Origin: a virus
DNA: 64,000 bases
IMG/VR virus record: IMGVR_UViG_3300045738_001392
Span: 1 to 64,000 of that record
Direction: 5' to 3' (one strand)
A program made the translations under genes and the position numbers. Of the stretch, positions 15,324-56,592 are shown piece by piece (the first letter of the stretch is position 1; each line of letters opens with the position of its first letter). The notes under the pieces are model-generated. The model did not search any database. It saw only the letters and a program-made list of their open reading frames with translations, and was not told the DNA's origin.

Positions 15324-16273
15324 TCGCTTGTAAGGCGTGCGACAAAGAATTCGAATCCGACGGCTCTTTACATAAGCATCTGAGGGCTCACAAAATGAGA
15401 ATGGCAGAATACTATCAAAAGTATTTTCCCAGATATGATCTATATGATAAAAAAATTATAAAATTCAAATCTAAGCAATTTTATTTTGAATCTAATTTTA
15501 ATGGACGATTAAATCTGAAGAAGTGGCTAAAAGAGCAGCCAGAAGAAACCGCTAGAGAATATTGTATTAATTTTCTAAAGCACAGAAAAGAAACTAGAAA
15601 TTTGAAGTATACCCCTAGCCAAGTAGAGATGAGAACTTTAATGTTTCCTCCTATCCCGTATATAGATAAATTATTTGGCGATTATTATGAAACGTGCGAA
15701 AAACTAGGGCTCGAGAGCAAACACAAAAGATTTCCGCACAAACACTTTCTCGTTTCTGTCGACGAAGCGAAGCTAAAAGAATACACCATACTCATAGATA
15801 CCAGAGAACAAAAACCTCTAAAATTTGAATTCCCCGTGGAGGTAGCTACTTTAAGTTATGGAGATTATGCATTTCGCCATAGAGATGGAGTTGCTCCGCA
15901 CTACGGGTGTTTGACTTATGTAGAAAGAAAGTCAATTACGGATTTTATCGGGACTATGAGCGGCGGGTTAGAGAGATTTAAGAAAGAAATAGAACGAGCA
16001 GCAAGCGATGATGCTAATTTAATAGTTTTAGTGGAAGAAAGCTTAAATACGTGTCGATCGTTTAATTATCAGCCTCATGTCTCGAAAAAGATAAGGGCAA
16101 CGCCGGAGTTTGTATTCCATAACGTCAGGAGTCTTCTTCAGGAGTATTCAAATGTACAGTTCCTATTCGTAAAAAATAGGGCCGAAGCTTCTAGAGTTAT
16201 ACAAAAAATTTTTATTAACTCTGGATCAAGCACGTTTGATTTACAATTAATGTATGATACAAAAAAAATATAA
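15320..16273 (+). CDS. C2H2 zinc finger - ERCC4 nuclease
   Basis: A 317-residue protein with a classic C2H2 finger at the N-terminus (C4, C7, H20, H24) and an XPF/ERCC4-type nuclease domain from about 150. The catalytic pattern is clear: IDTREQ (159-164), GDY (181-183) and ERKSITD (202-208), matching the family's GDY...ERKxxxD. Such nucleases cut branched or flapped DNA. No helix-hairpin-helix tail is evident. Good ribosome site (GAGGAGGAATT-ATG) and four-base overlaps with both neighbours. Just before TerL, it may resolve branched concatemers before packaging; this is inference. Confidence 0.85.
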   Translation: MIACKACDKEFESDGSLHKHLRAHKMRMAEYYQKYFPRYDLYDKKIIKFKSKQFYFESNFNGRLNLKKWLKEQPEETAREYCINFLKHRKETRNLKYTPSQVEMRTLMFPPIPYIDKLFGDYYETCEKLGLESKHKRFPHKHFLVSVDEAKLKEYTILIDTREQKPLKFEFPVEVATLSYGDYAFRHRDGVAPHYGCLTYVERKSITDFIGTMSGGLERFKKEIERAASDDANLIVLVEESLNTCRSFNYQPHVSKKIRATPEFVFHNVRSLLQEYSNVQFLFVKNRAEASRVIQKIFINSGSSTFDLQLMYDTKKI

Positions 16274-18105
16274 TGTGGTATTCTCCAGAAAAATATAGGC
16301 CCAAGAACCCAAGGGATTTAAATCAAGAATTTTTAGATTCCTTAAAGGGAGAATTAAGCACTAAAGAAGCGAAGATCTCCCTTGCTAAATTTTTGCATCA
16401 TAATTTGGGTTTCACTACGGAGCTGATATCAGGAATTAAATTGGCCCCCTATCAGGAAATTACTCTCCGAGGAATGATGGAGCGCAATTTTAGCATGTGC
16501 GTGTGGGGCCGTGGTTGCGGTAAGACATTTATCGCCAGCATCTTTGCATTCTTGTATTGTATATTTAATCCCGGCTCTAAGATACTCATTGCTGGCCCGA
16601 CGTTTCGTACTGCGAGGTTTATTTTCAATAATATAGAGAAGATGGTAGATACCAAGGGCGCAGAGCTTCTAATGCAAGCTTTCGGGGCCAAATCAAAAAG
16701 GAATGATCAATATGAATGGAAAATTAATGGCGGAACAATTACCGCTATCCCATTAAGCGGCGAAAAGATTCGTGGTTTTCGCGCCAATGTTCTTCTGCTC
16801 GACGAGTATCTACTGCTACCAGAAGATACTATTAAAACGGTTTTGATGCCGTTCTTGGTCGCCCCGCAGAACATGAAAGAACGCATAGAAGTTAGAGAAA
16901 TAGAAGACAAGCTCATTGAGGCAGGAAAGATGAAGGAGGACGAAAGAATGGTGTTCGTAAACGATTCTAAAATGATCGCCCTTTCGTCTGCGAGTTATAC
17001 TTTCGAAAATTTATATAAGCAGTATAAAGAATGGTTAGATAAAATATACTCCAAAGAAAAAGGGGAGGCTTCTTATTTTATTTCTCAAATGGGTTACGAG
17101 GCTCTGCCAGCTCACATGATCGATACGACGATTATTGAAGAAGCTCAAAATGGAGGACAAAGTCATTCAAGTTTTCAACGCGAGTATTGTGCTCAATTTA
17201 CAGATGGTTCTGATTCTTATTACAGCGCAAAGAAAATGCACGAATGCACTGTTCCTGACGGGCAAAGCCCAACAACAATGATCAAGGGGCACAAGGATAA
17301 AAAATATATTTTGGGGATTGATCCTAGTTTCAGTAATAGTCCTTCGTCTGATTTTTTCGCCATGGCAGTAATAGAGATAGATGAAGAGGCTAATCAAGGC
17401 GCTCTAGTTCATAATTACGCGGTGGCTGGTGGTAATTTGAAAGATCATATCAGATATCTTTATTATTTACAAAACGCTTTTGACTTTGATTTGATATGTA
17501 TTGATAATGCTGGTTTTCAATTTATTGATAGCTGCAACGAAACCAAGTGGTTTCAAAACGATAGAATTAATTTAAAATTTATAGATTTTAATAGTGACAA
17601 AGAGGGGTTGGGCTATGAAACGGAAATTAAAGAATTAAAAAAACAATATAATAAGAGCGAGGGAAAAATAGTATTTAAACAAAATTTTAGTTCTGCATTT
17701 ATAAGAAAGGCTAATGAACATTTGCAGGCAGCCATAGATCATAAGAAAATTTGGTTCGCCTCGAAAACGACAGCTAATTCTGGAGAATTTGAGAGGACAG
17801 TAGATAAAAAAATTAAAACCACTTTCACAGGCCATGAAACCGTGCTCGATCTCATTGAGCATCAAGACAATTTAATTTTTCAAACGAAGCGGCAATGCGC
17901 CCTAATTGAAGTTAAGAGTACAGCAAAGGGCACGCAGACGTTTGACCTTCCCCAGCATTTAAAACGCTCCACAAGCGCAACTAGGGCCCGTAAAGACAAC
18001 TACACGACTCTTATGCTCGCCAACTGGGCGATGAAATGCTATTTCGACATGCAGAAAGCTGAAGAACCTCAGTATTTCACTTTTACTCCTAGGATGGTTG
18101 GATAA
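16273..18105 (+). CDS. terL: Terminase large subunit
   Basis: The 610-residue DNA-packaging motor. The ATPase domain has Walker A GRGCGKT (79-85) and Walker B VLLLDE (173-178). The RNase H-like nuclease domain begins at KKYILGIDPSFS, with metal-binding D350 and D360 candidates, and a further Asp pair is expected near ICIDNAG. Length is normal for a T4-type large terminase. It overlaps the nuclease gene by one base. A 34-base gap with an AGTGTAAT motif separates it from the first fibre gene. Confidence 0.95.
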   Translation: MWYSPEKYRPKNPRDLNQEFLDSLKGELSTKEAKISLAKFLHHNLGFTTELISGIKLAPYQEITLRGMMERNFSMCVWGRGCGKTFIASIFAFLYCIFNPGSKILIAGPTFRTARFIFNNIEKMVDTKGAELLMQAFGAKSKRNDQYEWKINGGTITAIPLSGEKIRGFRANVLLLDEYLLLPEDTIKTVLMPFLVAPQNMKERIEVREIEDKLIEAGKMKEDERMVFVNDSKMIALSSASYTFENLYKQYKEWLDKIYSKEKGEASYFISQMGYEALPAHMIDTTIIEEAQNGGQSHSSFQREYCAQFTDGSDSYYSAKKMHECTVPDGQSPTTMIKGHKDKKYILGIDPSFSNSPSSDFFAMAVIEIDEEANQGALVHNYAVAGGNLKDHIRYLYYLQNAFDFDLICIDNAGFQFIDSCNETKWFQNDRINLKFIDFNSDKEGLGYETEIKELKKQYNKSEGKIVFKQNFSSAFIRKANEHLQAAIDHKKIWFASKTTANSGEFERTVDKKIKTTFTGHETVLDLIEHQDNLIFQTKRQCALIEVKSTAKGTQTFDLPQHLKRSTSATRARKDNYTTLMLANWAMKCYFDMQKAEEPQYFTFTPRMVG

Positions 18106-19396: not shown

Positions 19397-19407
19397 AATG
19401 GAATAAA

Positions 19408-19743: not shown

Positions 19744-19747
19744 AATT

Positions 19748-24600: not shown

Positions 24601-27600
24601 TATTTATGATGGAGTACTTGTACCCGGGATAGGATACACTCCGGTGGGTGGACAGGGTGGTGGCTATTATGGTGGCACGACGCCTCCTCCCTCGTCCGAT
24701 CAACCAGTTTATGCCCTAGATCACTTTGATATAACTTCTGTAGGCGCTGGATATACTTTCGCTCCCGACGTCACTTTAAGCGGGGGATTAATTACGCAGG
24801 TAGGGGTGCCATATGCCGTCAAAGTCACCATAGGTGATAGAGGTCCCACTAGCGGCGAATACATTCCCAGCGCCATCCAGCAGGGCTTTACCGCGGTAGG
24901 CGTTGCTGACGAGAATAAAACTTTAGACTTAGATGAACTAGAAAATCATACTTATCATTCGGGATTAGCTCTTAAACCCGGAGCAGCAGCTAACGCCGGT
25001 TCTACTCCAAACTCTGAGAGTTCAAAGTATATCGATTCTAATTTTGAATCTTTCTTATTTTCGGGTTGGGAAGCTGTAGAGCCTCATAGGTTATTCTTCG
25101 ATTATCATAATTTTCGTGCTCATATGGCTGTTAGGGGGGACGACGGCTTTGCCAATCCTTCAACCTATCACGCCAACTTCGGACCGCCGCTGAGCGGGCT
25201 ATTGGAGCACGGCGTTCCGGCGTACGGAGCTAACGACTTCGAGGAGCTTGGTCCGGGAAATCTGTTCTATTCAGAAAATGTTAGCACTAACAGATTGTGG
25301 CGTTTGAAATTTCATAAAGATTCAGCGTTAGAGCAGAATATCCAAATCGATGGTGGTGGTGGACAAGATATGGTCGGCTATGTAGAATTAAAAAATCATA
25401 ATGAACTTCTAGGTTTTAATGATGATGATTCTCTTTTAGATAAATTATTCCAATTATATTCTCATCCAGATTTTCGTAGTAGTGCGGGTTCTGTTAATGC
25501 TCTTGATTTAAATGATATAAGTTATGAAGAATTATTGTGGAGCACCCCTGTTAACAAAGGGGGGAAGCTGCCCAATGAAGATGCGATTTTAATTCCTTAT
25601 AAATTACATATAACAGGCGCTGGATGGGGATATACTGAAGCACCCACTATTACAGAGGAATTTGATAGGACTTTCCCGGGGATGATGTATATGCTTGAGC
25701 CCACCGGTATTACTATAGTAAGCGGAGCGGCCGGGGCTCACACGGATCTTTGGGATTTCGGCCTAGAGGGCGCTCCTCTTACAGATTTAGAGAATCATGG
25801 TTGGGAGAGGCTTTGGGGCAGCGGTTATCTAGATGGTGGTTATAGTGCCCCACAAGGATCTTGTGCGTCCTCGGCAACTGGCGTAGCTTATTCATCATCC
25901 GAATATGATTATAATACGAATACATACACATATTCTAGCGGGTTCTATTTGGCAAATCAATATCTAAGCGATAGCAACAAACTTAAAATCCCACATCCTG
26001 ATCTGGGGCCAGCAAGCGCAGGGAATGGTGCCGGAGGTGTTGGCGAAGGTCACCCGGTTTGGAACAATACAAAAATTGTAGGCGGCGACATCCCCTTGAG
26101 CGTGAATGCTTACGCATCGGGCAGAAACTACGCACAGAATCAAATAATATGGTTTAGTGGAGTCAATGATGGTGGTGTCGGACCGACAGAGATAGCGTGG
26201 GGCACGCTTAATGTTGATCATGGTCACGATTTCTACGGGAACCACTCGAACGGTCATGCGGGAGTAACAAGCATTACTATACATAATGAAGGGGCTGGGT
26301 ATATTATACCTGATAATCTTCCAGCTTCTGGAGGATCTACCGCTGCTGACGGAAGCGCACTAACTGGGCCGGGAGGCGTGCCCGGTGGCGTGGTGGGCAT
26401 AATTACGGACGTTATAAGCGGAGGGGAGCAGGGCAACCAAGCCAACGGGGGCACTTCCTTCTACGCGCAAGGCAACGTTTGGCCGGGAATGGATCACGGG
26501 CCCATATGCGGTTATTTGGGTGCCGATTTTTGCTACGTTTCGACGTCACTTCCCGCGCAGGGCTGGGGGATGGGCAGTGGAAATCGGATTTGGGGGACAC
26601 ACGGCCTTTTTGGCTATCAACACCACCCCGACGAGGAATACAACACGTCAATGGCCTCCGGATGGGTGCAAGTATGGAATGGTGGGTTGCTGTCCAATGG
26701 AGCATCGGCCTTTGCTACCATACAGGGAAGATACGGTGGCTACACTGGCCAGCAGCACGCTCGAATGCATGAACAACTAGAATTTTATGCACCGGCCTTA
26801 GAATTAACGAAAAGTCATACGAATGATATGTATAGCGCAACTTCTGCTGACCGCATAAACTTTGAAAATCAATTAGCTAAATGGATAAATTTCGAAACGT
26901 TCTTGCCTGCGCAGTCTACGGTGGAAGCCTTTTTGGCTAGTGGATCTTTGGACAAAGTTGAAGTAACCGATATGGGATCTGGTTACACTTCTGTGCCGGG
27001 CGTAGTTTTCTCAGGGGGGACATCGGGTGTAGAGGCGACTGGTGCAGCTCATACTTCACGATATGTGGACAGTATAACTTTAATAGCTGGAGGCGCGGGA
27101 TATCAATCTTTTCCAGACGTAACTATTTCTGGTGGGAATGGGTTCGGAGCTTCTGCGGTTGGACAAAAGGCTGCTAGTGACATTACTGGTTTATCACTTA
27201 TTTCTGGAGGAAAAGATTATACAGAATCACCAACCATAAATGTTTTGGGGGGTGGGCTCGGAGTTACCAGTGCAGCAGCTATTAAGTGTAGATTGCCTGT
27301 AGCCTTAGGAACATTAGCTTTTACGAATAACAAAAATTATAAAGAATATAGGATGGTAGGCCAAGGAGATGACGCCCTTAAGACTTCTCAAGTGAACGAG
27401 CTTGAACTTTATTCTGGAGACTATAGAATCTCAAATTATTCCAATAGAAATAATCATACTTTAGTAATTAAAAGCGATAAAAGCTTATTGGGATGGGGGG
27501 AAAGTGTTAATGGTCAGCTGCCCTCTTCTGGAATTACAAATGCCATTAGCGTATCCGCTGGGTATAACCACAGTTTGATAGCTAAAGAAAATGGAACGGT

Positions 27601-29071
27601 TGTCGCTTTCGGAGATAACAGCTATGGACAAATAAATGTTCCGGATGATTTGAGTAACGTAATTAATGTTTCCGCTGGAGATAATCATAGTATGGCACTG
27701 CTTGCTGGGGGCATGGTTAGAGCTTGGGGCGACAATACGTACGGTCAATGTAGTGTGCCCGCGTCTTTACTAAGCGGGCTTAGCGGAGACCATGGGGCAA
27801 TAGCTGTTGAAGCAGGCAATAGGCATAGTCTGGCTCTTTTGGGCAATGGAACAGTATTGGGATGGGGAGCGACTGAACCGTCAACTGTTCCCAGCGCATT
27901 AGACAAAGTTGACAGTGTTGCAGCTGGAAATAATTTTAGCTTAGCCCTTAGAACTAACGGCGATGTCGTTTCGTGGGGAGGCACGGCTAATTCCTATGGG
28001 CAGCTAGTCCCTGAAGATTTGAAAGATGTAGTAGCGATTGACGCTTGCAATGATCACGTCTTGGCTTTGCAGGTAGACGGGTCAGTAACTGGGTGGGGAA
28101 GAATTTTTGATGGGGAAAATAATATAGATATAACTGGTGCTATTCCGCAAGGATTGAATTCTGGTATAAATATATTCGCAGGAAAAAATCATGGGTCTAT
28201 ATTGAGAAGCGATGGTTCAATGGTTACATTTGGGGTGATTTGCTCAGATGAACTATACAATAGCGGGATTATTCCCCCAAACGTTACCGAAAGAACTTGC
28301 TGCGAAACGACGGGCTCTGTTATATTCGATTTGGGCCAAACCAACTCAGACAAATTAAATACAAATGAAAAGATAGCTTATAGAAGTAAAAATATCACCA
28401 ACAGATTGACTAGTGACACCTACTTCCCACCGGATAGCGGCTATTTACAAAATAAGGTTAGAATAGTTATGGATACTTCCAAAGTCGGCTATGCTGATGC
28501 TGAGCCCATTACGGGAGAATACCCATTGATAGAATTGGCGCCCGAAGTCTCTCCGGAAACAAACACAAATTATGGGCCCTCCATAACCGTGTCTAATTGG
28601 GATCAGGATTCGGCTGATAGTTTGTATGTTAGATATACCTTGGACGGCTCTGATCCAGCTACAGGCGCGGGAACCATTAATGAAGTGATTTTGCCTCCAG
28701 AAAGCGGAGATTTCATACATATTTTAACAACGGGAGAATTTACGAATAGCACTACCTTGAAGGTATTCGCCTCCTCAGACGTCTATCTTAACTCGGATAT
28801 AGTGTCTTATGTAAGACAGCAGTTAGCTGCTCCTACGGCGACTATAACGGCTAATGGTAACATTCTTAATATAACGATGAGCGCTACAGTTCCAGCTGGC
28901 GAAACAAGAACGCCAACTATTTACTATACCTTGGATGGCTCGGCTCCCACGGAAAATTCATACTTATATGCCAATCCAATAAGTTTACAAGGATCCACGG
29001 CGACTGTTAAAGCCAAGGCCTTTTTAATAGGATACATCGACAGCAATATAACTATAGAAACTTATCCATAA
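21602..29071 (+). CDS. Giant fibre protein with two RCC1 propellers
   Basis: A 2489-residue protein, the largest in the window. From the N-terminus: a chitobiase-like beta domain (about 50-150, YKYTIDGTSPTGAS), a first RCC1 beta-propeller (about 300-585, repeats of SAGxNHSLAL...VxAWG), a discoidin-like segment (about 735-790), a first set of GSGY repeats (about 820-985), and a long unique middle (about 990-1780). A second GSGY set (1788-1900) and a second RCC1 propeller (1950-2215) follow, then two chitobiase_C-like domains (about 2313-2489, YTLDGSDPATG; YTLDGSAPTEN). All of these parts are typical of adhesive or sugar-binding surface proteins. It has no signal peptide. Most likely a large tail or head fibre for receptor binding. 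Confidence 0.8.
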   Translation: MSRNVNTSRIGKARVTGPINNSSNKSDVTTGRSVSRSHRRTGKVDEELDKFLKVSAPIFEPGSGPTALQFTVSLTNQEAGATYKYTIDGTSPTGASALTLQSTSLNLSLTGTTNPSLIFKAYGIRNDYANSDIITLNYALQNVSDAIFSLASGSVPENQVIGLDLEAGATGYYTLNGVDPSGNAGTTSSQYTNPFVLSFANSSSVTGKAIAVKGGSLDSQIVSGIFTHNSSLDYGGAYDGVRDVEGALVSFKPVVDKVPFPSKVFLSTTEGQEIHRKISFWGTDFYVENYRPSTKDDFISLSAGQNHALALTQSGTVVAWGDSSFGQTNLTNSKLITSGEIERIDAGDSHSLALTFDQEVIAWGSNVQGQTAVPNNLSAIRVAAGGEHSLALKSDRTVVGWGENADGQIILPNNLNDVFEISAGQNHSAALAGYGVKTCKQLQHINGQWSVVNKSIPIGVASAWGVNDLAQSTVPSSLSAGTPDLIAISCGGNHTLALDANGKVFGWGDNGYGQITPLTGMDLVEPDGSSAFAIEIDAGFSHSLAISEKGTVFAWGSNLNNQTNVTNLFNNSVLLAAGDNYSLAYGLEPDEHIYYSTGALDPSILYTGFINVNSNTTINAISQNKSTQAASNLVSKSYSQQQLSGVSDFGLLSSEGTYTPMETGTINPARFTERKDFVTKIHEDDVQKEPEVEITVSHPGYLTYQIEDVPITDAVQKRFSSSLVDGDVGKAFDNDKSINNYLSFNPGGYVGYKFDNQQKVTRVDFATNADNFHKVGDGLIQGANNGIDWEDIAFFSKRFPDSYPPFLSLDGNALDRIATVEMISGGAGYTEDPVIQFAVASGQEGEGAKAKALFSSFSLTGFSVLLGGTGYDSAPDVTVTSVVGGAGASGTAVLSTTSVVDSVALTFHGLGYTSSPTVTITGGGGTGAAAVAFLSGTQLTGVEIIENRTPYSTPPTTHIQGGGGQGAGALAHLTAFEVAKLGSDGILIGVTNEKPPHGYHIYDGVLVPGIGYTPVGGQGGGYYGGTTPPPSSDQPVYALDHFDITSVGAGYTFAPDVTLSGGLITQVGVPYAVKVTIGDRGPTSGEYIPSAIQQGFTAVGVADENKTLDLDELENHTYHSGLALKPGAAANAGSTPNSESSKYIDSNFESFLFSGWEAVEPHRLFFDYHNFRAHMAVRGDDGFANPSTYHANFGPPLSGLLEHGVPAYGANDFEELGPGNLFYSENVSTNRLWRLKFHKDSALEQNIQIDGGGGQDMVGYVELKNHNELLGFNDDDSLLDKLFQLYSHPDFRSSAGSVNALDLNDISYEELLWSTPVNKGGKLPNEDAILIPYKLHITGAGWGYTEAPTITEEFDRTFPGMMYMLEPTGITIVSGAAGAHTDLWDFGLEGAPLTDLENHGWERLWGSGYLDGGYSAPQGSCASSATGVAYSSSEYDYNTNTYTYSSGFYLANQYLSDSNKLKIPHPDLGPASAGNGAGGVGEGHPVWNNTKIVGGDIPLSVNAYASGRNYAQNQIIWFSGVNDGGVGPTEIAWGTLNVDHGHDFYGNHSNGHAGVTSITIHNEGAGYIIPDNLPASGGSTAADGSALTGPGGVPGGVVGIITDVISGGEQGNQANGGTSFYAQGNVWPGMDHGPICGYLGADFCYVSTSLPAQGWGMGSGNRIWGTHGLFGYQHHPDEEYNTSMASGWVQVWNGGLLSNGASAFATIQGRYGGYTGQQHARMHEQLEFYAPALELTKSHTNDMYSATSADRINFENQLAKWINFETFLPAQSTVEAFLASGSLDKVEVTDMGSGYTSVPGVVFSGGTSGVEATGAAHTSRYVDSITLIAGGAGYQSFPDVTISGGNGFGASAVGQKAASDITGLSLISGGKDYTESPTINVLGGGLGVTSAAAIKCRLPVALGTLAFTNNKNYKEYRMVGQGDDALKTSQVNELELYSGDYRISNYSNRNNHTLVIKSDKSLLGWGESVNGQLPSSGITNAISVSAGYNHSLIAKENGTVVAFGDNSYGQINVPDDLSNVINVSAGDNHSMALLAGGMVRAWGDNTYGQCSVPASLLSGLSGDHGAIAVEAGNRHSLALLGNGTVLGWGATEPSTVPSALDKVDSVAAGNNFSLALRTNGDVVSWGGTANSYGQLVPEDLKDVVAIDACNDHVLALQVDGSVTGWGRIFDGENNIDITGAIPQGLNSGINIFAGKNHGSILRSDGSMVTFGVICSDELYNSGIIPPNVTERTCCETTGSVIFDLGQTNSDKLNTNEKIAYRSKNITNRLTSDTYFPPDSGYLQNKVRIVMDTSKVGYADAEPITGEYPLIELAPEVSPETNTNYGPSITVSNWDQDSADSLYVRYTLDGSDPATGAGTINEVILPPESGDFIHILTTGEFTNSTTLKVFASSDVYLNSDIVSYVRQQLAAPTATITANGNILNITMSATVPAGETRTPTIYYTLDGSAPTENSYLYANPISLQGSTATVKAKAFLIGYIDSNITIETYP

Positions 29072-29073
29072 TA

Positions 29074-29229
29074 ATGAAAAAATATATTATGTTATTCACA
29101 CTTACAGCGCTCTTTGCAATTGGTTGTAACTGGGGAAATTCCGGATGTCCGGATTGCTCGTGTAGCGCGGAATGCTGTTCATCCGACAGTTGCTCGGTTG
29201 CCGATTGCGATTGCGTTTGTAAAAAGTAA
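29074..29229 (+). CDS. Cys-rich small lipoprotein, 51 aa
   Basis: A 51-residue protein with a signal peptide (MKKYIMLFTLTALFAIGC) ending in a lipobox-like AIGC, so C18 would be lipidated. The mature part of 34 residues has nine more Cys (C25, C28, C30, C34, C35, C40, C45, C47, C49) and many Ser/Asp, like a metal- or disulphide-rich knot. It starts three bases after the giant fibre gene and six bases before the portal gene. Small phage lipoproteins can block receptors or act in lysis, and either is possible here. Cys-rich stretches also open the protein at 32515. Confidence 0.7.
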   Translation: MKKYIMLFTLTALFAIGCNWGNSGCPDCSCSAECCSSDSCSVADCDCVCKK

Positions 29230-29235
29230 AATTAG

Positions 29236-31233
29236 ATGGCAGAAGAAAAACCAAAACAAAGAAGAAGAAGGCCAAAGCTGATCACTCCCCTGATGGTTGC
29301 AGAGGGGGCGGCTTATGGTACGACGGAGTCTACTCGCGTTAGAAGAAATATAACCTCTCAAATTGAGAGCGTTAACCGTTTTGCTAATATTGATAACGGC
29401 CTAATTCCCTTTAAAAATAGTAGCAGCATATCGAGCGGAAGCAGTATTAATGTGAGAGACGCAGTGGTCCTGTGTCAAAAGGCATATTATAACTTTTCGA
29501 CATTTAGAAATGTAGTCGATTTGATGACGGAGTTTTCCACTAGTGATATTTATTTTAAAGGTGGAAGCAAAAAATCAAGAGATTTCTTCAGGGCTTTTTT
29601 CAAAAAAATTAATTTAAGACTGTTTCAAGACAAGTTCTTTAGGGAATATTATCGTAGCGGAAATGTCTTTATTTATAGATTTGAAGCGAAACTGAGAGCC
29701 GGAGATGTCAAAAAAATTATTCAAGTATACGCAGACGATACAGCTATTCTAGAGTATGGGCTTACCGACACCCGCCCAGCTAAACCCACTAAGATAGGAG
29801 ACATACCGGGTGTTAAGAAAAATGTTATACCAACCAAATACATGATATTGAATCCGGCCGATGTACACATGGAGGGATCGGCATCTTTCTCTTCGGGTAA
29901 TTATGCAAAGGCTATAACAGATTACGAGCTAGAAAGAATAAAGCACCCCTATACAGAAGAAGATAAGCAAATATACGAGAGCTTAGACCCCGCGACTAAA
30001 AAGAAGATAAATCAAGGTAAAATGGGGCAGGTACTTTTACCCCTTAATCCAGACAAATTAATCGTTTCGTTTTATAGGAAACAAGATTACGAGCCGTTTG
30101 CTGTCCCGATGGGATTTCCTGTTTTAGATGATATAAATCTAAAAGCAGAGATGAAAAAAATGGACGCCGCCATCCTTCGTACTATGCAGCAGTGCATTTT
30201 GTTGGTTACCATGGGCGCTGAGCCAGACAAGGGGGGGATAAATCAAAAGAATTTGGGCGCCATGCAAAGGCTCTTCGAAAATGAGTCTGTGGGAAGAGTT
30301 CTTATCTCTGATTATACGACTAAGGCCGAATTTGTTACCCCGAAGGTCGCTGACCTCTTAGATCCTAAGAAGTATGACGTGGTAGAAAGGGATATTAATA
30401 CGGGGTTAAATAATATACTATTTTCTGGAGAAACATTCTCTAATCAAGCTAGTAAGGTAGATGTTTTTGTCGCGAGATTGGAGCATGGCAGAGAGATGTT
30501 CCTTCATGATTTTCTTATCCCCGAGATGAAAAGAATTTCTAGAGCTTTGGGGTTCAAATCGTATCCTGAACCGGTCTTTGATAAAATTACTCTTAAGGAT
30601 AGTTATAATACCGCGAGGGTGGTAAATAGACTTATCGAACTTAACGTCCTTACTCCCGAAGAAGGTCTGGAGGCTCATGAGTCGGGGCGCTGGCCAGACA
30701 TTGATTCTTCTATCAAATCTCAAAGAAAATTCAAAGCATTTAAAGACGAAGGTCTTTATGAGCCATTGGTGGGCGGTACTCCTTCAGTGGAAGAGGCGGG
30801 TCGGCCAGAAGATACGGGCACCCCGCAACAAACAAAAGAGATTTCTCCTCAGGGAGAGGGACCGCAATCTAAGAACGAATTGGGGGAAAAACAAGTAGCA
30901 ATGGCGGAATTTTTCGATTTGACCTCGGTCAAAAACAATTTTATATTGGCTCAAAATTTGGAAAAAGAGGTATTAAAACAATTGCGGTCAAAGCATAATA
31001 TTAAAAAACTTAGCAAAAAGCAGAAGGAAGTAGCTTCAGATATAGTAGATTTGATAGTGACAAATGAAGATTCAAAGCACTGGGTATCAAAAGTAGAGGA
31101 ATATTGTGAAAATCCAAGTGTAAAGACTAATAACAAAATACTTGGAGAAATCACTGAGATCTGTGATAGGCACCAAGTAGACAAGTATCTCGCAGGAATT
31201 TTGAGATCGAGCATACCAAACGATAAGGATTAA
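29236..31233 (+). CDS. Portal protein
   Basis: A 665-residue portal of the head vertex. Recognised from the central region (about 295-330: KAEMKKMDAAILRTMQQCIL and following), the segment DINTGLNNILFSGETFSNQA (about 385), the downstream HGREMFLHDFLIPEMKRIS helix, and the stretch RLIELNVLTPEEGLEAHESG (about 462) typical of phage portals. A Gly/Pro/Glu-rich linker (about 510-550) leads to a C-terminal helical tail. Gene order with the protease and capsid genes supports the call. The next gene begins three bases after the stop. Confidence 0.88.
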   Translation: MAEEKPKQRRRRPKLITPLMVAEGAAYGTTESTRVRRNITSQIESVNRFANIDNGLIPFKNSSSISSGSSINVRDAVVLCQKAYYNFSTFRNVVDLMTEFSTSDIYFKGGSKKSRDFFRAFFKKINLRLFQDKFFREYYRSGNVFIYRFEAKLRAGDVKKIIQVYADDTAILEYGLTDTRPAKPTKIGDIPGVKKNVIPTKYMILNPADVHMEGSASFSSGNYAKAITDYELERIKHPYTEEDKQIYESLDPATKKKINQGKMGQVLLPLNPDKLIVSFYRKQDYEPFAVPMGFPVLDDINLKAEMKKMDAAILRTMQQCILLVTMGAEPDKGGINQKNLGAMQRLFENESVGRVLISDYTTKAEFVTPKVADLLDPKKYDVVERDINTGLNNILFSGETFSNQASKVDVFVARLEHGREMFLHDFLIPEMKRISRALGFKSYPEPVFDKITLKDSYNTARVVNRLIELNVLTPEEGLEAHESGRWPDIDSSIKSQRKFKAFKDEGLYEPLVGGTPSVEEAGRPEDTGTPQQTKEISPQGEGPQSKNELGEKQVAMAEFFDLTSVKNNFILAQNLEKEVLKQLRSKHNIKKLSKKQKEVASDIVDLIVTNEDSKHWVSKVEEYCENPSVKTNNKILGEITEICDRHQVDKYLAGILRSSIPNDKD

Positions 31234-31235
31234 TT

Positions 31236-32390
31236 ATGGAAGAACAAGGAGAAGACAAAGTAAAAGCAATGTATGGAGAAGCGTCTTCAGTAGATGTTTC
31301 GCTACCTGATTTATTGATTCCGCCACCGCCGAAGCAACGAGAAGAGAAGAAGGAGATAAAAGACGAGGTAGATGTATCTTTTAATTTCGCCTTCATGGGC
31401 GCTGGACAAGGAGGGTCAAGAATTGCAGAAAGTTTTCATAAGTTAGGTTATAGAAAGCTTGCGGTTTTGAATACGGCCGAGCAAGATCTCAATACAATCA
31501 ATTTAGAAAATAAATTACTTATCGGCAATGGAGGAGCGGGGAAAGATCCGTCAGTTGGGCGAGAAGCATATAAAGCGCGCAAAGAAGACGTGCTAGATTT
31601 CATGAGATATTCTTTCGGAGATGAGGTCGATAAAGTTTTCATTTGCGCTGGCGCAGGTGGAGGAACAGGGGCGGGAACGCTTTGCCCTTTAGTCCAAACA
31701 GCTAAAGAATACCAAGAATCTATAGACGCAAGCTCGAATAGTGTTGGCGTTATCTTGGCGCTACCCAAGAAATCCGAAGGCAAGAGGGTAAATGAAAATG
31801 CCCTAAACACATTGTCTGAAGTTTGGGGCTTGGTCGAGTCTGGGGACGTATCCCCCTTAATTTTATTGGACAATGAAAAAATTGCTCAGCTTTATCCAAA
31901 TTTAGTAGTTTCTAATTTCTGGCAAACTGCGAACATGAGTATGGCTGGACTATTCCACTTGTTTAATTTGACGACCGCCAGAGATAGCAGCTTTAGCTCT
32001 TTCGATTCAGCCGATTATAGGGGGATTTTAAATAGCGGACTAGTCGTATTCGGAGCTTCCAACGTAGAGGATTGGAGGGATCCAGTAAGTATTTCTCGAG
32101 CAGTAAGGGAAAATTTACAAAATAATTTACTCTCCGGAGGTGTAGATATCAGCGGAGGCAGTTGCGCCGCTGGTGTTGTTATCGGAGGGAAGGAGCAACT
32201 AGAAAATATTCCGCAAGCTCATTTGGATGGAGCTTTCGAACAGCTAACGAGAATGCTTAGAGTGAACAGTACTGTTCATAGGGGCATTTATAGCGGCGAT
32301 AAGCCGGAGTTAACGATCTTTACGGCCGTAGGGGGGATTCCCAAGCCCGTAGAGAAACTCGAAGACCTCAAGAAGCTTGCGGGTTTATAA
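31236..32390 (+). CDS. FtsZ/tubulin-like GTPase
   Basis: A 384-residue tubulin-superfamily protein. The nucleotide-binding loop is GAGQGGSR (55-62), and the tubulin signature GAGGGTGAG lies at 139-147. The T7-loop region has SFDSADYRGIL with D257 and D260 in the positions of the catalytic NxDxxD aspartates, the Asn replaced by Ser. The N-terminal 45 residues are acidic and Pro-rich and lie outside the fold. It should bind GTP and may polymerise. It is unusual in sitting between portal and protease in the head operon, which points to a role in assembly or in positioning the maturing head, possibly like PhuZ of jumbo phages. Confidence 0.85.
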   Translation: MEEQGEDKVKAMYGEASSVDVSLPDLLIPPPPKQREEKKEIKDEVDVSFNFAFMGAGQGGSRIAESFHKLGYRKLAVLNTAEQDLNTINLENKLLIGNGGAGKDPSVGREAYKARKEDVLDFMRYSFGDEVDKVFICAGAGGGTGAGTLCPLVQTAKEYQESIDASSNSVGVILALPKKSEGKRVNENALNTLSEVWGLVESGDVSPLILLDNEKIAQLYPNLVVSNFWQTANMSMAGLFHLFNLTTARDSSFSSFDSADYRGILNSGLVVFGASNVEDWRDPVSISRAVRENLQNNLLSGGVDISGGSCAAGVVIGGKEQLENIPQAHLDGAFEQLTRMLRVNSTVHRGIYSGDKPELTIFTAVGGIPKPVEKLEDLKKLAGL

Positions 32391-32514
32391 GTTAGAAAAA
32401 GGGCAACGGTAGGAGGAATTGTAGTTCATGTATAATGCGCTACAATGACGGTTTTTTTTGTATTTTTACAAAATTTGTTTATAATATGTGTAAGTATATA
32501 GGGTTGCCCCTTTT

Positions 32515-33120
32515 ATGAAAAAAGATATAATTGAAATAGATTTTACTTCGCAAATAAATGCTCAGAATAAGAGCGACGATTGTTCTTGCGCGGGGAACTG
32601 TGATAGCGATTGCTCTTGCCCCTGTCATGGCGACCCCAAAGAATCCGAAGGTGACGAGATCATTGCATTTTCCGTTAGAATAGTCGAGGCGCTTACTTCC
32701 AAGGCGGAGGACCATAATAGGGATGAAAATAATAGCCCCGTTACTTTCGAAGAATTACTGGAAGCTTATCGAAGGGGCGCCAATATGCAAGATATTTTCG
32801 AAGGACGAACTCTCGGAGAACTAGCGATGGCGAGGGTTAATCTCCTTTTGAGAGTGAAGAGTAGACGATTTAAAGATATACTTACAGGAGTGGATGAAGA
32901 AAAAACGGCGCAACAACTTTCTGGTTTGATTTTTGATCAAGAAGATCATAGTATATCAATAAATAGCGAATTAGATATGTTCGATTCATGGGCTCCACAA
33001 GAGGGAGATTTTATTAAAGCTAGAAAAGATATTGAAAAATATAATTTAGATTATGACTTTAAAAATATTAACGAACTTTATTTGAACAAATATGAGCAGA
33101 TCCCTCTTGAATTTGATTAG
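32515..33120 (+). CDS. Head-operon protein with Cys-rich N-terminus
   Basis: A 201-residue protein. Residues 22-38 carry six Cys and one His (C23, C25, C29, C33, C35, C37, H38), a likely metal site. The rest is acidic and helical (about 50-200), with an Arg-rich helix near 110-120 (ARVNLLLRVKSRRFKDIL). It stands after a 124-base gap that holds only an AT-rich stretch with TATAAT and TGTGTAAG, and four bases before the protease gene. Not recognised; possibly a connector or scaffold-related protein. Confidence 0.6.
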   Translation: MKKDIIEIDFTSQINAQNKSDDCSCAGNCDSDCSCPCHGDPKESEGDEIIAFSVRIVEALTSKAEDHNRDENNSPVTFEELLEAYRRGANMQDIFEGRTLGELAMARVNLLLRVKSRRFKDILTGVDEEKTAQQLSGLIFDQEDHSISINSELDMFDSWAPQEGDFIKARKDIEKYNLDYDFKNINELYLNKYEQIPLEFD

Positions 33121-33123
33121 AAG

Positions 33124-34659
33124 ATGAAAGAACATAAATATAAGACAATTTTCAGTTCTGTATTGAGACCTCTGGTTTCAGAAGAAAAAGATCAATATTT
33201 GGCCATGGCCAGTAAAATAAATATTGGAGATTTCATACCAGACATTGATACAGAAAAAAATATAGATTTACTTCCAATAGCTTTCAATGCGGCTGTCGTT
33301 AATAGACCCAATAAAAATGGAGACGTAATTGATACAGAAACGGCCTTGGCCATGTATAAAGCCTTTATCAATAAGCCTATGAACATTGAGCATAGCAGAG
33401 ATAGGATTATTGGAACAATTTTAACAGCTGGATTTAGTGAGTTTGGCACGGACAAAGTTCTTAGTGAAGAAGAGGTGTCCGGATCGACAGGTCAATTCAA
33501 CATCACCCTAGGGGGAGTTGTTTGGCGTATCGTAAATAGCGAACTAGCAGATATCATTGAAGATTCAGCTGACCCCACAAGCGAAAACTATTTAAAAGTT
33601 TCTGCTAGCTGGGAATTAGGATTTACTGACTACAAATTAGCTGTTGTAGCCAGTGACGAGAAGAGCATAATCGAAGCCGAATTCATTACGGATGAGGCGA
33701 AAAACTTTGAAATCCTTAAAGATCATTTGAGATCTCTAGGGGGGTCAGGGCAACTTGATGATGGGCGGTATGTCTATCGTCAGGTTGTTGGCGACGTTGT
33801 TCCTTTGGGTATAGGTTTAACTGAAACTCCCGCAGCGGATGTTGTTGGCGTTGTTGTTAAAAATGATACAGAGGAAGACGAGGGCCAACCCGAGGAAAAC
33901 CTAAAGAATCAGAAACCTTCTGAAAATCGGGGAGAAAGTGAAGCTTCTCAAACTAAACAACTAACCAAAAGAGTAACTATGAAAATTACTAGTTTGAAAG
34001 ACATAAATGCTGAGAGCCTACAAGTATTGGAAGCCTCAGATATAGCCTCTTTTGTTGAAGAGGAGCTCCAAAAAGCTTCCGAACAGTACGCGGCGGAGAA
34101 ATCAGCTTTTGAGACCTCTCGTAAGGAGGCCCAAGATCAGATCGACGTTCTAAATACTGAGGCGGAAAAGCAAGGTGGAGACCTCGAGAAAGTACAAGCC
34201 GAGTTGGCTGGTCTGCTGGCCGAAAAAGCCGTTAAAGAAGCAGAAGAAAAATTCAATCAACGAATGACCTCGATGGATGAGGACTATGCGCTTAGTGATG
34301 AAGATCGCGAAGTCATTGCCTCAGATGTCAAAGAAATGACTGATGAAGATTTTGAAGCCTACGCCACTAAAATGGCTGTTCTACTTTCCAACAAAAACAA
34401 AAAGGCTATTAAAAAACAGACTGAAGAAGCTGAGGCGAAGAAGGCTGAAGAGGAGACTCTGAAAGTAGAAGCGCCAAAAAAAGAAGAGGAAGCAAAAGCT
34501 TCCAATGCTGATGAGGTTTCTTACGTTGTTGAAGAGGCGCTGGACGAAGCGGAAGAGGAAGGGGATGCTATTGCTAACTCTACTACTGCCGAAGATCCGA
34601 GCGTATACAATAAATATCGGTCTGCCTTTGGTTTAGACCAATTTAACATTACTGTTTAA
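33124..34659 (+). CDS. Prohead protease - scaffold fusion
   Basis: A 511-residue protein. The N-terminal 250 residues look like a phage prohead serine protease: VVNRPNKNGDVIDTETAL (58-75) and KPMNIEHSRDRIIGT (84-98) with H90 as probable catalytic His, and a Ser in the VSASWELGF strand near 160 as probable nucleophile. The C-terminal half (about 280-490) is an acidic, Lys/Glu/Ala-rich coiled coil typical of scaffold. An in-frame ATG at 33979 could give the scaffold part alone. It would shape the shell and then be cut during maturation. Confidence 0.75.
   Translation: MKEHKYKTIFSSVLRPLVSEEKDQYLAMASKINIGDFIPDIDTEKNIDLLPIAFNAAVVNRPNKNGDVIDTETALAMYKAFINKPMNIEHSRDRIIGTILTAGFSEFGTDKVLSEEEVSGSTGQFNITLGGVVWRIVNSELADIIEDSADPTSENYLKVSASWELGFTDYKLAVVASDEKSIIEAEFITDEAKNFEILKDHLRSLGGSGQLDDGRYVYRQVVGDVVPLGIGLTETPAADVVGVVVKNDTEEDEGQPEENLKNQKPSENRGESEASQTKQLTKRVTMKITSLKDINAESLQVLEASDIASFVEEELQKASEQYAAEKSAFETSRKEAQDQIDVLNTEAEKQGGDLEKVQAELAGLLAEKAVKEAEEKFNQRMTSMDEDYALSDEDREVIASDVKEMTDEDFEAYATKMAVLLSNKNKKAIKKQTEEAEAKKAEEETLKVEAPKKEEEAKASNADEVSYVVEEALDEAEEEGDAIANSTTAEDPSVYNKYRSAFGLDQFNITV
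33979..34659 (+). CDS. Possible nested scaffold protein
   Basis: In-frame internal start (MKITSLKDINAESLQVLEAS) exactly at the border between protease and coiled coil, preceded by GAGTAACT. It would give a 226-residue free scaffold, the arrangement known from nested protease/scaffold genes in other phages. The ribosome site is weak. Confidence 0.35.
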   Translation: MKITSLKDINAESLQVLEASDIASFVEEELQKASEQYAAEKSAFETSRKEAQDQIDVLNTEAEKQGGDLEKVQAELAGLLAEKAVKEAEEKFNQRMTSMDEDYALSDEDREVIASDVKEMTDEDFEAYATKMAVLLSNKNKKAIKKQTEEAEAKKAEEETLKVEAPKKEEEAKASNADEVSYVVEEALDEAEEEGDAIANSTTAEDPSVYNKYRSAFGLDQFNITV

Positions 34660-34687: not shown

Positions 34688-35290
34688 ATGGCTTATATTG
34701 ACAGAAACTTACGTCCGTTTAGACAATACAGCGAACACGATGTAGTCAACCTTTTCACTCTAGAAGCGCGCGCGGGGGAAACCCTGCCCGTGAATAAGGG
34801 GACACTGGTATCCATTATCAGTGGTGCTGGTTGGGAAGCCACAGATGAACTAACGCTTGAAACTATTCATGCAGAGGCGTCAACGTATAATAATACTTTG
34901 AGTCCGCGCTTTGCTGTTCAGTCCAAGATCCATGTTCACACTGGCGACGCTACTGAAACTGTTTATGGTTTGTTGCTGCATGATGTGCGCGACAAAGACG
35001 AAAACGGCGAACTTTTAGTTTATAATCCTCGCAAAGCTGCAGAGATGCAGGCTTCTGTGAGTGGACAGGTTGTCCCTCTCGTAAGAAAGGGTCTTTTCCT
35101 GTATGATGGTTTCGTAACGGGTGCTGGTTCACCAGCTGCCGCAGGAAATCCGGTTTATCTTGCCGCTGATGGTAAGATGGGCTCGGTCCCAGCAGTAGCA
35201 GGTCAAAGCGTTCAAGTAGGTATTGCCCTTGGAGGGATGGATACTGACGGAAACATTCTAATCGACTTTAACCCAGCAGCTTATGCTTAA
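34688..35290 (+). CDS. Head decoration-like protein
   Basis: A 200-residue, beta-rich protein with a capsid-decoration profile (LFTLEARAGETLPVNKGTLV; AAAGNPVYLAADGKMGSVPA; VGIALGGMDTDGNILIDF). Located between protease/scaffold and major capsid protein, the usual place for a decoration or cement protein. Ribosome site AAGGAATAAATAAG before the ATG. The family is not certain. Confidence 0.7.
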   Translation: MAYIDRNLRPFRQYSEHDVVNLFTLEARAGETLPVNKGTLVSIISGAGWEATDELTLETIHAEASTYNNTLSPRFAVQSKIHVHTGDATETVYGLLLHDVRDKDENGELLVYNPRKAAEMQASVSGQVVPLVRKGLFLYDGFVTGAGSPAAAGNPVYLAADGKMGSVPAVAGQSVQVGIALGGMDTDGNILIDFNPAAYA

Positions 35291-35310: not shown

Positions 35311-36480
35311 ATGAGATTAAAGTTAAAAGAAACTCCTGAACAGGTAGAACTTATTAAAGCTATGGGATCACGCAACGTTACTGTTGCGCGTGAAGCACAG
35401 GAAGCTTTCGCAGCTTTCTTGGGCCCCGTAGTTCAAGAGGTTCTTGGCGTTGCAGGAACAGCATCGAGAATCTATACTGATTCTCCGTTCGACGAAGATG
35501 ACTCGCCCTCCTATCCGCTTGATTTGTATTACAATGAGAGCGCTGGCTATGTGACCGTATGGTCTCAAAACATGGCTGGAGGTTTGCCGAGCTCACAGAT
35601 CGAAGGTGTAGCTGAGATGAAGATCGCGACTTATCGCATCGATTCTGCAGTTAGCTTTCTAAAGCGTTATGCGCGCAAGTCGCGTTTAGACGTGGTTAGC
35701 AAAGCTCTAGAGCGCATGTCCCAAGAAGTTCTCCTCAAGCAGGAGAGAAACGCTTGGGCCGTTATTTTGCGCGCTTTGGCTGAGGCAAAGACCAAGACCT
35801 CGATTCATAATGAAACGAAGCATATTATGCACTGTGCTAGCTCTGACGGAACCATTGATGGTTCTGGCTCTGGAGCTACTAAGCTCAGCGAACTGAAGCT
35901 TGCTGATTTCAGCAGACTTCTTACTCGTATGCGTAGACTCAATGAGTCTTTTGCACAAGGTACTCCGGACTCGGTTTACAGCAACGGTATCACCGATTTG
36001 TATGTAAGTCCCGAGATGAAGGAACATATCCGTGCGTTCGCGTTTAACCCGATGAATACAAAGGGATCTAACACTGACATTCCGCTGCCCGATGACATGC
36101 GTCAAGGCATTTACAATTCGGCAGGTATGCAAGAGATCTACGGCGTAAACATCCTTGAGCTCCTTGAGCTCGGGAAAGAGAAGAAGTACAATGCGTTGTT
36201 TGGTAGTTTTACTGCCAATCAGGGTAATGGTGGCGGATACAATGTATCCAACTTCTCAAACGCTGATGACGAAATCATGGTCGGTGTTGACAATAGTAAG
36301 GGCGCGTTTATTCGTGCTGTTGCTCGTCAAGCTGATAGTGGCGGATCATTTACCGCTCTACCGGACGATCAGTTTAATCTGAATCGTGCTGACAGAACTG
36401 GTTTCTATGGCTTCTTGGAAGAGGGCCGTGTTTGCATCGACGCTCGCGCGCTTGCAGGCATAGTGTTTAGACACGCTTAA
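35311..36480 (+). CDS. Major capsid protein
   Basis: A 389-residue major capsid protein of HK97-type fold, judged from position, size and pattern: an N-terminal helix (about 1-40), RNAWAVILRALAEAKT helical region (about 145), and a long C-terminal domain ending in GFYGFLEEGRVCIDARALAG. It has the strongest ribosome site of the block (TAGGAGGATATAAAAA-ATG), in line with high expression, and a perfect 10-bp terminator directly after the gene. Confidence 0.85.
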   Translation: MRLKLKETPEQVELIKAMGSRNVTVAREAQEAFAAFLGPVVQEVLGVAGTASRIYTDSPFDEDDSPSYPLDLYYNESAGYVTVWSQNMAGGLPSSQIEGVAEMKIATYRIDSAVSFLKRYARKSRLDVVSKALERMSQEVLLKQERNAWAVILRALAEAKTKTSIHNETKHIMHCASSDGTIDGSGSGATKLSELKLADFSRLLTRMRRLNESFAQGTPDSVYSNGITDLYVSPEMKEHIRAFAFNPMNTKGSNTDIPLPDDMRQGIYNSAGMQEIYGVNILELLELGKEKKYNALFGSFTANQGNGGGYNVSNFSNADDEIMVGVDNSKGAFIRAVARQADSGGSFTALPDDQFNLNRADRTGFYGFLEEGRVCIDARALAGIVFRHA

Positions 36481-36503: not shown

Positions 36504-36534
36504 TTGCCCCGAAGAAATTCGGGGCAATTTTTTT
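36504..36534 (+). terminator. Strong intrinsic terminator after capsid gene
   Basis: Perfect 10-bp stem TTGCCCCGAA (36504-36513) with TTCGGGGCAA (36518-36527), GAAA loop, then seven T residues. It ends the head operon. Confidence 0.93.
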
Positions 36535-37886: not shown

Positions 37887-40790
37887 ATGACAGGAATAAA
37901 CCAAAACATAGTTGTAGATGTTACCCTTGGCGATCCGAATGCAGACCCGAAGGTAACTCAAGTTTACTTCCCTAGTTTGCAGGGGGCGGGGTTGATGGGC
38001 CCCACGGGGCATACAGGCCTTCGTGGACCGCAGGGAAATAGGGGGCCCACAGGACCGATTGGATTAACAGGGCCATATGGATTGACGGGCCCCGAAGGCT
38101 TCAGGGGAGATGTTTATGGATCCGAATTCGCTGTTTCAGGCGGAATGCAGGTTCCATATTTACAAGCAACGATCAATCTCACCATAGATCAAAATTTGGC
38201 CTATACCCCGGGCCAACAAGCCGTAGTCATCGCCGCTAGCACATCTGGGGGAGGTTTAACATACGATCCAAACAATAAATTTTTTGCGACAGTTATTTCT
38301 TATGATTCAACCACGGGCGAAATTTCTCTATACTGTTTAGAAAGATTTGTAGATGGGGTAAAAAATCCAACTTATGGCGGGACCATCTTCACAAATTGGC
38401 TCGCGAACTTGAGAGCTGCTTCAGCATCGCAGGGAGATACGGGCCCAACGGGCCCCGACGGAATAATTGGGTCCACTGGACCCATTGGAATACGGGGTTT
38501 AACAGGTGTAACTGGGTCCATAGGAGATACGGGTCCCACCGGCCCGGGTGGAGGAGCCAAGGGAGATGACGGGCCTATAGGTCCCACTGGGTCTATTGGG
38601 CCGATTGGAATTACTGGCGATATAGGAGTTACGGGTCCCATTGGGGGCGTGGGACCCACTGGGCCAACTGGTAATCTAGGGCCTATAGGGCCCCCTTGGG
38701 GGCCGACAGGGCCTACTGGTGCTCAGGGTGTTCAAGGTGCGGCTGGGGCCACTGGGGCTACTGGGCCGCAAGGAATTACTGGGCCGCAAGGACCGCAGGG
38801 TTTGGTTGGAGAACCCGGTTCTACAGGAGCGCAAGGACCATTGGGGCCGCAAGGATTAGTGGGGCCAATCGGAGCAATAGGAGAAACTGGACCGACTGGG
38901 CCCACTGGATTGCACGGACCAACGGGAATTATTGGACCTACCGGAGTACAAGGAGAAATAGGGTCAACTGGGCCTACCGGCATAATTGGCGTAACTGGAC
39001 CTACTGGCGACGTGGGGCCTTCTGGCGGGGTGGGAGAAAAATATAGCGGAATATCTACTTCAAGTTTTACGATTCCTTCGGCCGCCCAAACGAGGACAAT
39101 TAGAATAAGTAGCACTCCGGCTGGCGTCGCGCTCACTGATTTGGCTTATTCGATAGGGCAGAGAATAAAAGTAGTTTATGATATTAGTAATTCTTTCTTG
39201 GCAGATATCACTAACACCGCTTATACTCTTAGCGGGTCCCCACAATATATAGACTTAGATGTAGTTTGTGTCTCTAATAGCTTCGTAAATGCAAATGCCC
39301 TAAATCTATGGAGCATTTATTTGGACGGCGTCATCGGTCATGAGGGGCCGACTGGACCGATAGGAATCATTGGCCCCACAGGACTTATCGGACCGCAGGG
39401 TAACATCGGTTTTACTGGATTAATGGGGCCATCTGGGGCCACGGGTGGCATTGGCGCTACTGGATCTATTGGCCCCACTGGACCAGTTGGATTACTAGGT
39501 CCAACCGGGCCCACGGGGCCAATTCCGCAAGAAACACTTATCGTTAATTCTGCTTATCCTGCCATAGCTACTACGCACTTTTCTCCCGCAGATAAATTAA
39601 ACGGGGCGTTAACGGCGTCGAATTATATACAACTAACGAGCGCTCAACCAACAATACAAACCATGAGACGTGGACTAGCGCACTTGGGGAAATATTTTGA
39701 AGTAGGAACGAATAATACATTCTCAAATATAGTATACGATTCAAGGTTAAAAGACACAATTGATGGTAATTTTATAGGAAAAGATTTAACTTTAGGAAGT
39801 ACCTATTATATCAGAGTGAATGGAAGAAGCGTGCCCAATCACGCTTTTAGATTTAATCAGGTTTCGAGGCCCCCCTCTGTGATCGCGACGGTGAACACTA
39901 ATGCTAATCCTTACGACTTAGCATACGTTCCTACTTTAAATAAGATGTATATTACCACCAAGGGCGGCGTGCCGAAAATAGAGGTACTAGATTTAAGCAA
40001 TAATACTTTTGGCACAGCGATTTCCACCAACGTGCCCGGCCAAATTCAGGGCATAATTTATTGTCCATCTACAGACAGGTTGTTCGTTGCAAGCGTCTCC
40101 ACCAGTACAATTTCTGTTATAGATCCGTCAACGAATAATATCGTCGCCACCATTAACGTGGGGAACTCTCCCGTAAGGCTTGTTTATTGTCCTTCTAATG
40201 ATCGGATATATGTTACGAATACAGCTTCTAATAAAGTAAGCGTCATAGATCCCTCTGTAAACGAGGTAGTCTCTGAAATACAAGTGGGCGTCGGACCGAG
40301 GGGGATAGAATATTGTCCTTCTAATAATAGAATTTATGTTGTAAATTATAACGAGGGATCTGTAAACATAATAAATCCAATTTCAAATAAAGTTATTAAG
40401 ACTTTGAGCATAGGAAATTTGCCTGTCGACATCAAGTATTGCCCATCGAACGATATAATTTATGTTACTAATTTTTCACCCACATCAGTTTACATAATAG
40501 AAGCTCAGACAGATAATTATACCTATTTTTCAGGAGGCCTCGGTTCGAATCCTTTAAATTTGGGCTACAATCCAAATCTAGATAGAGTTTACGTTTCCAA
40601 TTTTGGCTCCAATACAGTTAGCTTAATTGATCCGAGAGCAGCTTGGCATAGTAATCCTTCTACGTCATCAACTCCGGTAACTTCATCTTTAGCGGTCGGT
40701 ACTAATCCAAGAAATATGGCTTTCTCACCAATAAATGATAAAATATATTTAGTAAACCAAAGCACAAACAATATATCGATTATAGAATAA
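37887..40790 (+). CDS. Collagen-like fibre with YVTN propeller
   Basis: A 967-residue fibre. It has a short N-terminal beta strand set, a collagen block, a LAYxxGQ domain (about 85-175), then a long collagen block (about 180-385). A second LAYxxGQ domain (about 390-480) and a third collagen block (to about 545) follow. The C-terminal 280 residues form a YVTN/YncE-type beta-propeller with repeats of xPSNDRIYVTNxxSNxVSVIDP. Such propellers bind surface partners, so this tip may be the receptor-binding end. Its stop overlaps the next ATG (TAATG). Confidence 0.82.
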   Translation: MTGINQNIVVDVTLGDPNADPKVTQVYFPSLQGAGLMGPTGHTGLRGPQGNRGPTGPIGLTGPYGLTGPEGFRGDVYGSEFAVSGGMQVPYLQATINLTIDQNLAYTPGQQAVVIAASTSGGGLTYDPNNKFFATVISYDSTTGEISLYCLERFVDGVKNPTYGGTIFTNWLANLRAASASQGDTGPTGPDGIIGSTGPIGIRGLTGVTGSIGDTGPTGPGGGAKGDDGPIGPTGSIGPIGITGDIGVTGPIGGVGPTGPTGNLGPIGPPWGPTGPTGAQGVQGAAGATGATGPQGITGPQGPQGLVGEPGSTGAQGPLGPQGLVGPIGAIGETGPTGPTGLHGPTGIIGPTGVQGEIGSTGPTGIIGVTGPTGDVGPSGGVGEKYSGISTSSFTIPSAAQTRTIRISSTPAGVALTDLAYSIGQRIKVVYDISNSFLADITNTAYTLSGSPQYIDLDVVCVSNSFVNANALNLWSIYLDGVIGHEGPTGPIGIIGPTGLIGPQGNIGFTGLMGPSGATGGIGATGSIGPTGPVGLLGPTGPTGPIPQETLIVNSAYPAIATTHFSPADKLNGALTASNYIQLTSAQPTIQTMRRGLAHLGKYFEVGTNNTFSNIVYDSRLKDTIDGNFIGKDLTLGSTYYIRVNGRSVPNHAFRFNQVSRPPSVIATVNTNANPYDLAYVPTLNKMYITTKGGVPKIEVLDLSNNTFGTAISTNVPGQIQGIIYCPSTDRLFVASVSTSTISVIDPSTNNIVATINVGNSPVRLVYCPSNDRIYVTNTASNKVSVIDPSVNEVVSEIQVGVGPRGIEYCPSNNRIYVVNYNEGSVNIINPISNKVIKTLSIGNLPVDIKYCPSNDIIYVTNFSPTSVYIIEAQTDNYTYFSGGLGSNPLNLGYNPNLDRVYVSNFGSNTVSLIDPRAAWHSNPSTSSTPVTSSLAVGTNPRNMAFSPINDKIYLVNQSTNNISIIE

Positions 40791-56565: not shown

Positions 56566-56592
56566 AAAAATTATAATATCGTCTAAGAGAGA

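Follow-up and report, generated by a model that had tools for sequence, protein, structure and literature searches.

In bacteria infected by nucleus-forming jumbo phages, viral capsids have been documented to travel along tubulin filaments. The locus considered here raises the question of what a tubulin-like gene does when it lies among the genes for the phage head. The window, the whole 64,000-nt stretch of DNA that was analysed, is part of a 67.7-kb IMG/VR contig. A sequence-only reading of this window placed a GTPase bearing the marks of a polymerising protein between portal and protease, and took that placement as suggesting that the protein either has a direct part in assembly or belongs to the virion.

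The gene (31236..32390, + strand), hereafter TUB, encodes 384 aa and is assigned to the tubulin/FtsZ superfamily by Pfam, structure matches, and alignment. The protein scores 54.1 bits against the Pfam Tubulin family PF00091 (cut-off 33, E 3e-14), and its match to Tubulin_2 barely exceeds the cut-off. An alignment of 121 unique relatives and the window copy locates an N-terminal nucleotide loop GAGQGG at residues 55-60 (31398..31415, +), a T4 signature GAGGGTGAG at residues 139-147 (31650..31676, +), and a T7 loop FDSAD with two invariant aspartates at residues 256-260 (32001..32015, +). All 122 unique sequences are identical at G55, G57, Q58, G60, G139, G141-143, G145, and G147, and equally at D212, N213, F256, D257, and D260; position 144 is T or S, and overall the GTPase-site residues are invariant or show conservative replacement at few positions. 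The T4 signature and the DxxD of the T7 loop, on which the claim of a polymerising GTPase had been based, are thus borne out. The AlphaFold2 model (26 relatives) has a pLDDT of 87 and a pTM of 0.85, with approximately the first 40 residues poorly ordered, and Foldseek matched it to TubZ (TM 0.77), CetZ2 (0.71), FtsZ (0.60-0.66), and, more weakly, PhuZ (0.53). These data support the prediction that TUB is a polymer-type tubulin GTPase.

Directly upstream lies the portal gene (29236..31233, +), the stop of which precedes the TUB start by 2 nt in the window. A PHROG portal family is matched by 10 of 20 members of this upstream-neighbour family (best E 6.7e-9), and the portal also matches YonE of SPbeta (9pha, E 0.007). 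Downstream, a conserved protein with an ALARVNxFL motif and no assigned function (32515..33120, +), present with or without TUB, is followed by a probable prohead protease with a coiled-coil scaffold part (33124..34659, +). The placement between portal and protease stands on the portal side; on the other side the protease is recognised from an invariant H90, the motif SASWELGF, and position, library searches gave no match supporting its identity, and the intervening gene had not been mentioned. Further downstream are a small conserved head protein (34688..35290, +), possibly a decoration protein given its conserved position and a weak Phage_cement_2 match (E 0.02), and the probable major capsid protein (35311..36480, +), assigned from position, a strong ribosome-binding site in relatives, and Foldseek. 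The 20 best Foldseek matches of the capsid model are all phage head structures, with the model being weak and too poor for a firm fold match. The protease, decoration, and capsid identities are probable and come mainly from position and weak matches. An intrinsic terminator-like hairpin with a 10-bp stem and a T run (36504..36527, +) closes the head unit. The terminase large subunit gene (16273..18105, +) adjoins or is near the portal gene in relatives and is split from it in the window by inserted fibre-like genes.

Other reading frames around this block, all on the + strand, are recorded here as observations in their own right. A 2489-aa ORF with RCC1-resembling repeats (VAWGDNxxGQ; 21602-29071) lies between terminase and portal, and a short Cys-rich lipoprotein-like ORF (MKKYIMLFTLTALFAIGC...; 29075-29230) stands just ahead of the portal gene. 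Collagen-like GPTG repeats mark several long ORFs at 18140-21223 and 37887-43895 that possibly encode fibres, and four consecutive large ORFs judged by eye to be glycosyltransferase-like occupy 53120-60395. The ORF at 12932-13618 has a weak sigma-70-like match (E 1e-5, below the cut-off) and is a possible late sigma factor. In many relatives, holin-like, lipoprotein, and conserved 'SCGP' genes precede the 32515-type gene (for example, L023:11140-13528 and L280:4470-7157), which suggests a lysis cassette within the head unit of these phages. A 116-kb relative carries a tmRNA gene with the tag EADEILAKFGYVEEEALLLAV (L152:10829-11256).

A survey of gene order in relatives, proposed with the original reading, showed that portal adjacency is strongly conserved where TUB is present. 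The portal gene was found upstream on the same strand in 131 of 135 loci selected by their tubulin, and 110 of these 131 have a portal-TUB gap of -17 to +11 nt; the other 21 have genes inserted between the two, such as one for a tail-tube-like protein. When terminator-like hairpins were counted within 160 nt past each stop, 109 of 130 loci had one 3' of the capsid gene and 3 of 142 had one 3' of the preceding gene, and in the surveyed loci none followed the terminase, portal, tubulin, 32515-type, or protease genes. Because the hairpin occurs almost only after the capsid gene and the portal gap is tight, TUB is very probably transcribed as part of the head unit, as judged from these sequence features. 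A sigma-70-type promoter just 5' of TUB was considered and rejected, as matches in the region (18 against 13.6 expected) are near chance. Shine-Dalgarno sequences are common in relatives before the capsid gene (96%) and the 34688-type gene (88%) and much rarer before the terminase, portal, and tubulin genes, a pattern that may set capsid dosage. The near abutment with portal in most relatives and the probable co-transcription with head genes would both be expected if TUB bound portal or capsid during prohead assembly, or were packaged in the virion and ejected. This explanation has to be weighed against what is found where TUB is missing.

As the first set of loci had been picked by tubulin, the survey was redone with the portal and capsid genes as separate anchors. 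Counting only TUB carriers and loci with enough downstream sequence to show TUB, 7 of 55 portal-anchored and 42 of 66 capsid-anchored loci carry the gene, fractions that vary with the sub-clades favoured by the scan patterns. Under strict labels, 179 of all loci have TUB and 40 do not, and in 17 of these 40 the portal gene lies 57 nt or less from the next conserved gene. TUB is often absent from loci that have the full set of terL, portal, protease, and capsid genes; in four such loci (L254, L266, L184, and L310), every other head gene is intact and nothing has taken the place of TUB at the junction. No tubulin remnants were found in the TUB-less loci, and a PF00091 search of 16 TUB-less contigs of 36-134 kb, possibly incomplete, gave no match anywhere in them. 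Across the portal tree, TUB presence needs 11 changes, at least 5 of them forced by well-supported branches, and the sister pairs L119/L266 and L267/L280 differ in TUB presence. In the interval from terL to capsid, no fixed partner gene tracks TUB beyond lineage-specific genes. TUB is thus optional yet position-locked in this phage group. Close relatives that differ in carrying the gene are natural pairs, the comparison of which makes the benefit of a phage cytoskeleton testable.

The same subfamily also occurs away from head genes. Four tubulin carriers (L077, L078, L327, and L328) have a T4-type terminase, and L077 additionally has a T4-type single-strand binding protein, tail tube, and head-closure protein; in these contigs, the tubulin gene lies apart from any window-type portal or capsid gene. 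A second outside set comprises contigs of 211 kb and 120 kb (L335 and L336) and shorter ones. In the 211-kb contig, tubulin is located at about 87.6 kb; the head maturation protease lies approximately 40 kb away and the portal, which is of another family, 90 kb away, and the window-type portal was not found. The tubulins of both sets group as a single clade (100/98) inside the head-operon tubulins (98/96), an arrangement suggesting that the gene was transferred from the head operon. On the L329 and L334 branch of the outside set, ASAAGGTGSG replaces the usual loop as a relaxed T4 signature. Since heads exist that lack TUB and TUB exists in phages with other heads, the head does not need TUB and TUB does not need such a head. 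The inference from placement to an assembly or virion role is accordingly not supported, and we consider that explanation unlikely.

A variable part of the protein offers a further clue. Residues 1-45 (31236..31370, +) form a tail predicted to be disordered, with a mean pLDDT below 60 for residues 1-40 and a mean column identity of 0.41-0.64 against 0.75 in the core (122 sequences). Conserved within this tail is the motif DVSLPDLLIP at residues 20-29 (31293..31322, +), which takes the form DISxPDIPxP in most members, with D20 at 98%, P24 at 97%, and P29 at 100% in the same alignment. Of 53 representatives spanning head-operon, T4-type, and large-phage copies, 51 have a loose version, against 0 of 5 TubZ; among shuffled tails it occurs in 2%. 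The motif is kept where the portal is of another type, and the window-type portal is therefore probably not its partner. It is possible that the motif serves as a cargo or tether contact, a role that the C-terminal tail plays in TubZ; membrane, a host protein, and the filament itself are other candidate partners.

The carriers of TUB are a large uncultured group of aquatic phages. Two scans of IMG/VR yielded 100 and 359 contig stretches encoding TUB relatives, and the top 80 of each scan were retained. Among cultured phages there is one relative only, the distant gp138 of Bacillus phage G (26%). The capsid protein has no match among 50,697 phage records, so the group has no close member there, and no paper describing it was found in the literature searched. 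A tubulin search of GTDB genomes for a prophage or host copy gave no match; a terminase search recovered one Flavobacteriales MAG contig that is tubulin-less after its portal, and one short contig from another MAG, a weak hint at Flavobacteriales as host. Mean p-distances are 0.34 for the TUB core, 0.43 for portal, 0.45 for protease, 0.32 for terminase, and 0.38 for capsid; the core is thus less diverged than portal and protease and similar in this respect to terminase and capsid. The distances of TUB correlate with those of portal (rho 0.42; permutation maximum 0.11), which indicates that TUB is at least partly inherited with the phage. The phylogeny suggested by the sequence-only reading could be completed for all but CetZ, which was compared by structure: the TUB family forms its own clade, PhuZ is separate (100/100), and the FtsZ clade excludes TUB. 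The deep placement relative to TubZ and FtsZ is tentative, with a support of 90/57 in a tree without CetZ, and the PhuZ branches are long, leaving the exact position of PhuZ unsure. What emerges is a separate tubulin lineage tied to the portal gene in many contigs of an uncultured phage group.

We propose that TUB is an accessory, late-made cytomotive tubulin, GTP-driven filaments of which would move or position procapsids or the DNA that they pack. TUB would be produced late, on the transcript that also encodes portal, protease, and capsid protein, would assemble into filaments driven by GTP, and through these would shift or place procapsids, or replicated phage DNA for packing, inside the infected cell; it would act like PhuZ or TubZ while belonging to neither. 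Judged by its full GTPase site, slow divergence, and repeated gain or loss, TUB would form a filament that is active yet accessory; that phages with other heads retain it agrees with a filament for transport in general, and late co-expression with capsid genes would suit the transport of capsids. Against this reading, PhuZ is described as early, unlike a late-operon gene, and no dedicated adaptor gene accompanies TUB in the head block. We put its probability at roughly 0.55. More tentatively, TUB could represent a phage tubulin of a third kind, neither PhuZ nor plasmid TubZ: in very common aquatic phages with no phage nucleus so far in evidence, a portal-linked late filament would move capsids, and its tail motif would act as a portable signal for cargo or tether. 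This fuller version we consider possible rather than probable.

Among known systems, the TubZ of type III plasmid partition comes closest. TubZ (RepX, PDB 4ei7, from Bacillus-type plasmids) has the same fold and full GTPase site as TUB; the Bacillus cereus protein is the closest solved structure by sequence, and TubZ and phage G gp138 are the best matches, by sequence (E 3e-19) and by profile (E 1e-37). This kinship is what would be expected if TUB partitioned the DNA of a plasmid-like prophage. However, a small TubR-like gene immediately precedes gp138 and the plasmid tubulins examined, in the place that portal takes in the TUB loci. A TubR profile, which found 7 of 8 TubR candidates withheld from its construction, matched none of the 5238 ORFs of 135 TUB-family loci, and no iteron or direct-repeat (tubC) array was found at 28900-33200 of the window. 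The second acid of the T7 loop is Asp in the TUB family and Glu in TubZ of 4ei7 and Lysinibacillus. TubZ also has a long, flexible C-terminal tail that binds its partners TubR and TubY (PMC5322520), whereas TUB ends at the core and carries its extra tail N-terminally. The lack of a TubR gene and of an iteron array makes partition of this type very improbable, and the profile and repeat searches largely refute it. In phage G itself, gp137-gp138 (L082:7683-9110) resembles a TubR-TubZ pair, and gp137 is matched by the profile from other TubR candidates (E 5.5e-7).

FtsZ and CetZ share the superfamily, GTPase motifs, and fold with TUB; CetZ was compared by structure only (TM 0.71). The FtsZ-like fold raises the question of whether TUB co-assembles or competes with host FtsZ, or takes its partners, and so blocks division, and the dispensability of TUB and its passage between unrelated phages fit an accessory gene directed at the host. 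Identity to FtsZ is only about 25-31%, and the score against the NCBIfam equivalog TIGR00065 (73.4 bits, cut-off 295.2), together with the position outside the FtsZ clade, rejects an FtsZ ortholog. The head-operon position would also be late for host takeover, and an inhibitor would not need a full GTPase site, so that interference with division appears rather improbable. The best predicted viral structure match is A0A6J5RW92 of an uncultured Caudovirales phage (TM 0.83, 28% identity), annotated 'FtsZ Cell division GTPase'; tubulins of the TUB type have therefore already been deposited, and no description of its context or function was found in the literature searched.

PhuZ, from phiKZ-like nucleus-forming phages, offers a parallel in function to the filament proposed here. 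Membership of TUB in PhuZ was rejected, as PhuZ forms a separate clade and the TUB family profile matched 0 of 5 PhuZ; in phiKZ, PhuZ adjoins a phosphatase-family gene and not a portal. PhuZ has been described as expressed early (PMC4244570). Both tubulins are phage-encoded and optional in their own phage families: PhuZ is non-essential and missing in 24% of nucleus-forming phages (PMC11724907), a parallel to the accessory nature of TUB. PhuZ is a tubulin of the lytic cycle, along the treadmilling filaments of which capsids migrate (PMC9067925), and TUB is proposed to act alike on capsids. If TUB does move capsids, phages would have turned to cytoskeletal transport repeatedly, and not in phage-nucleus systems alone.
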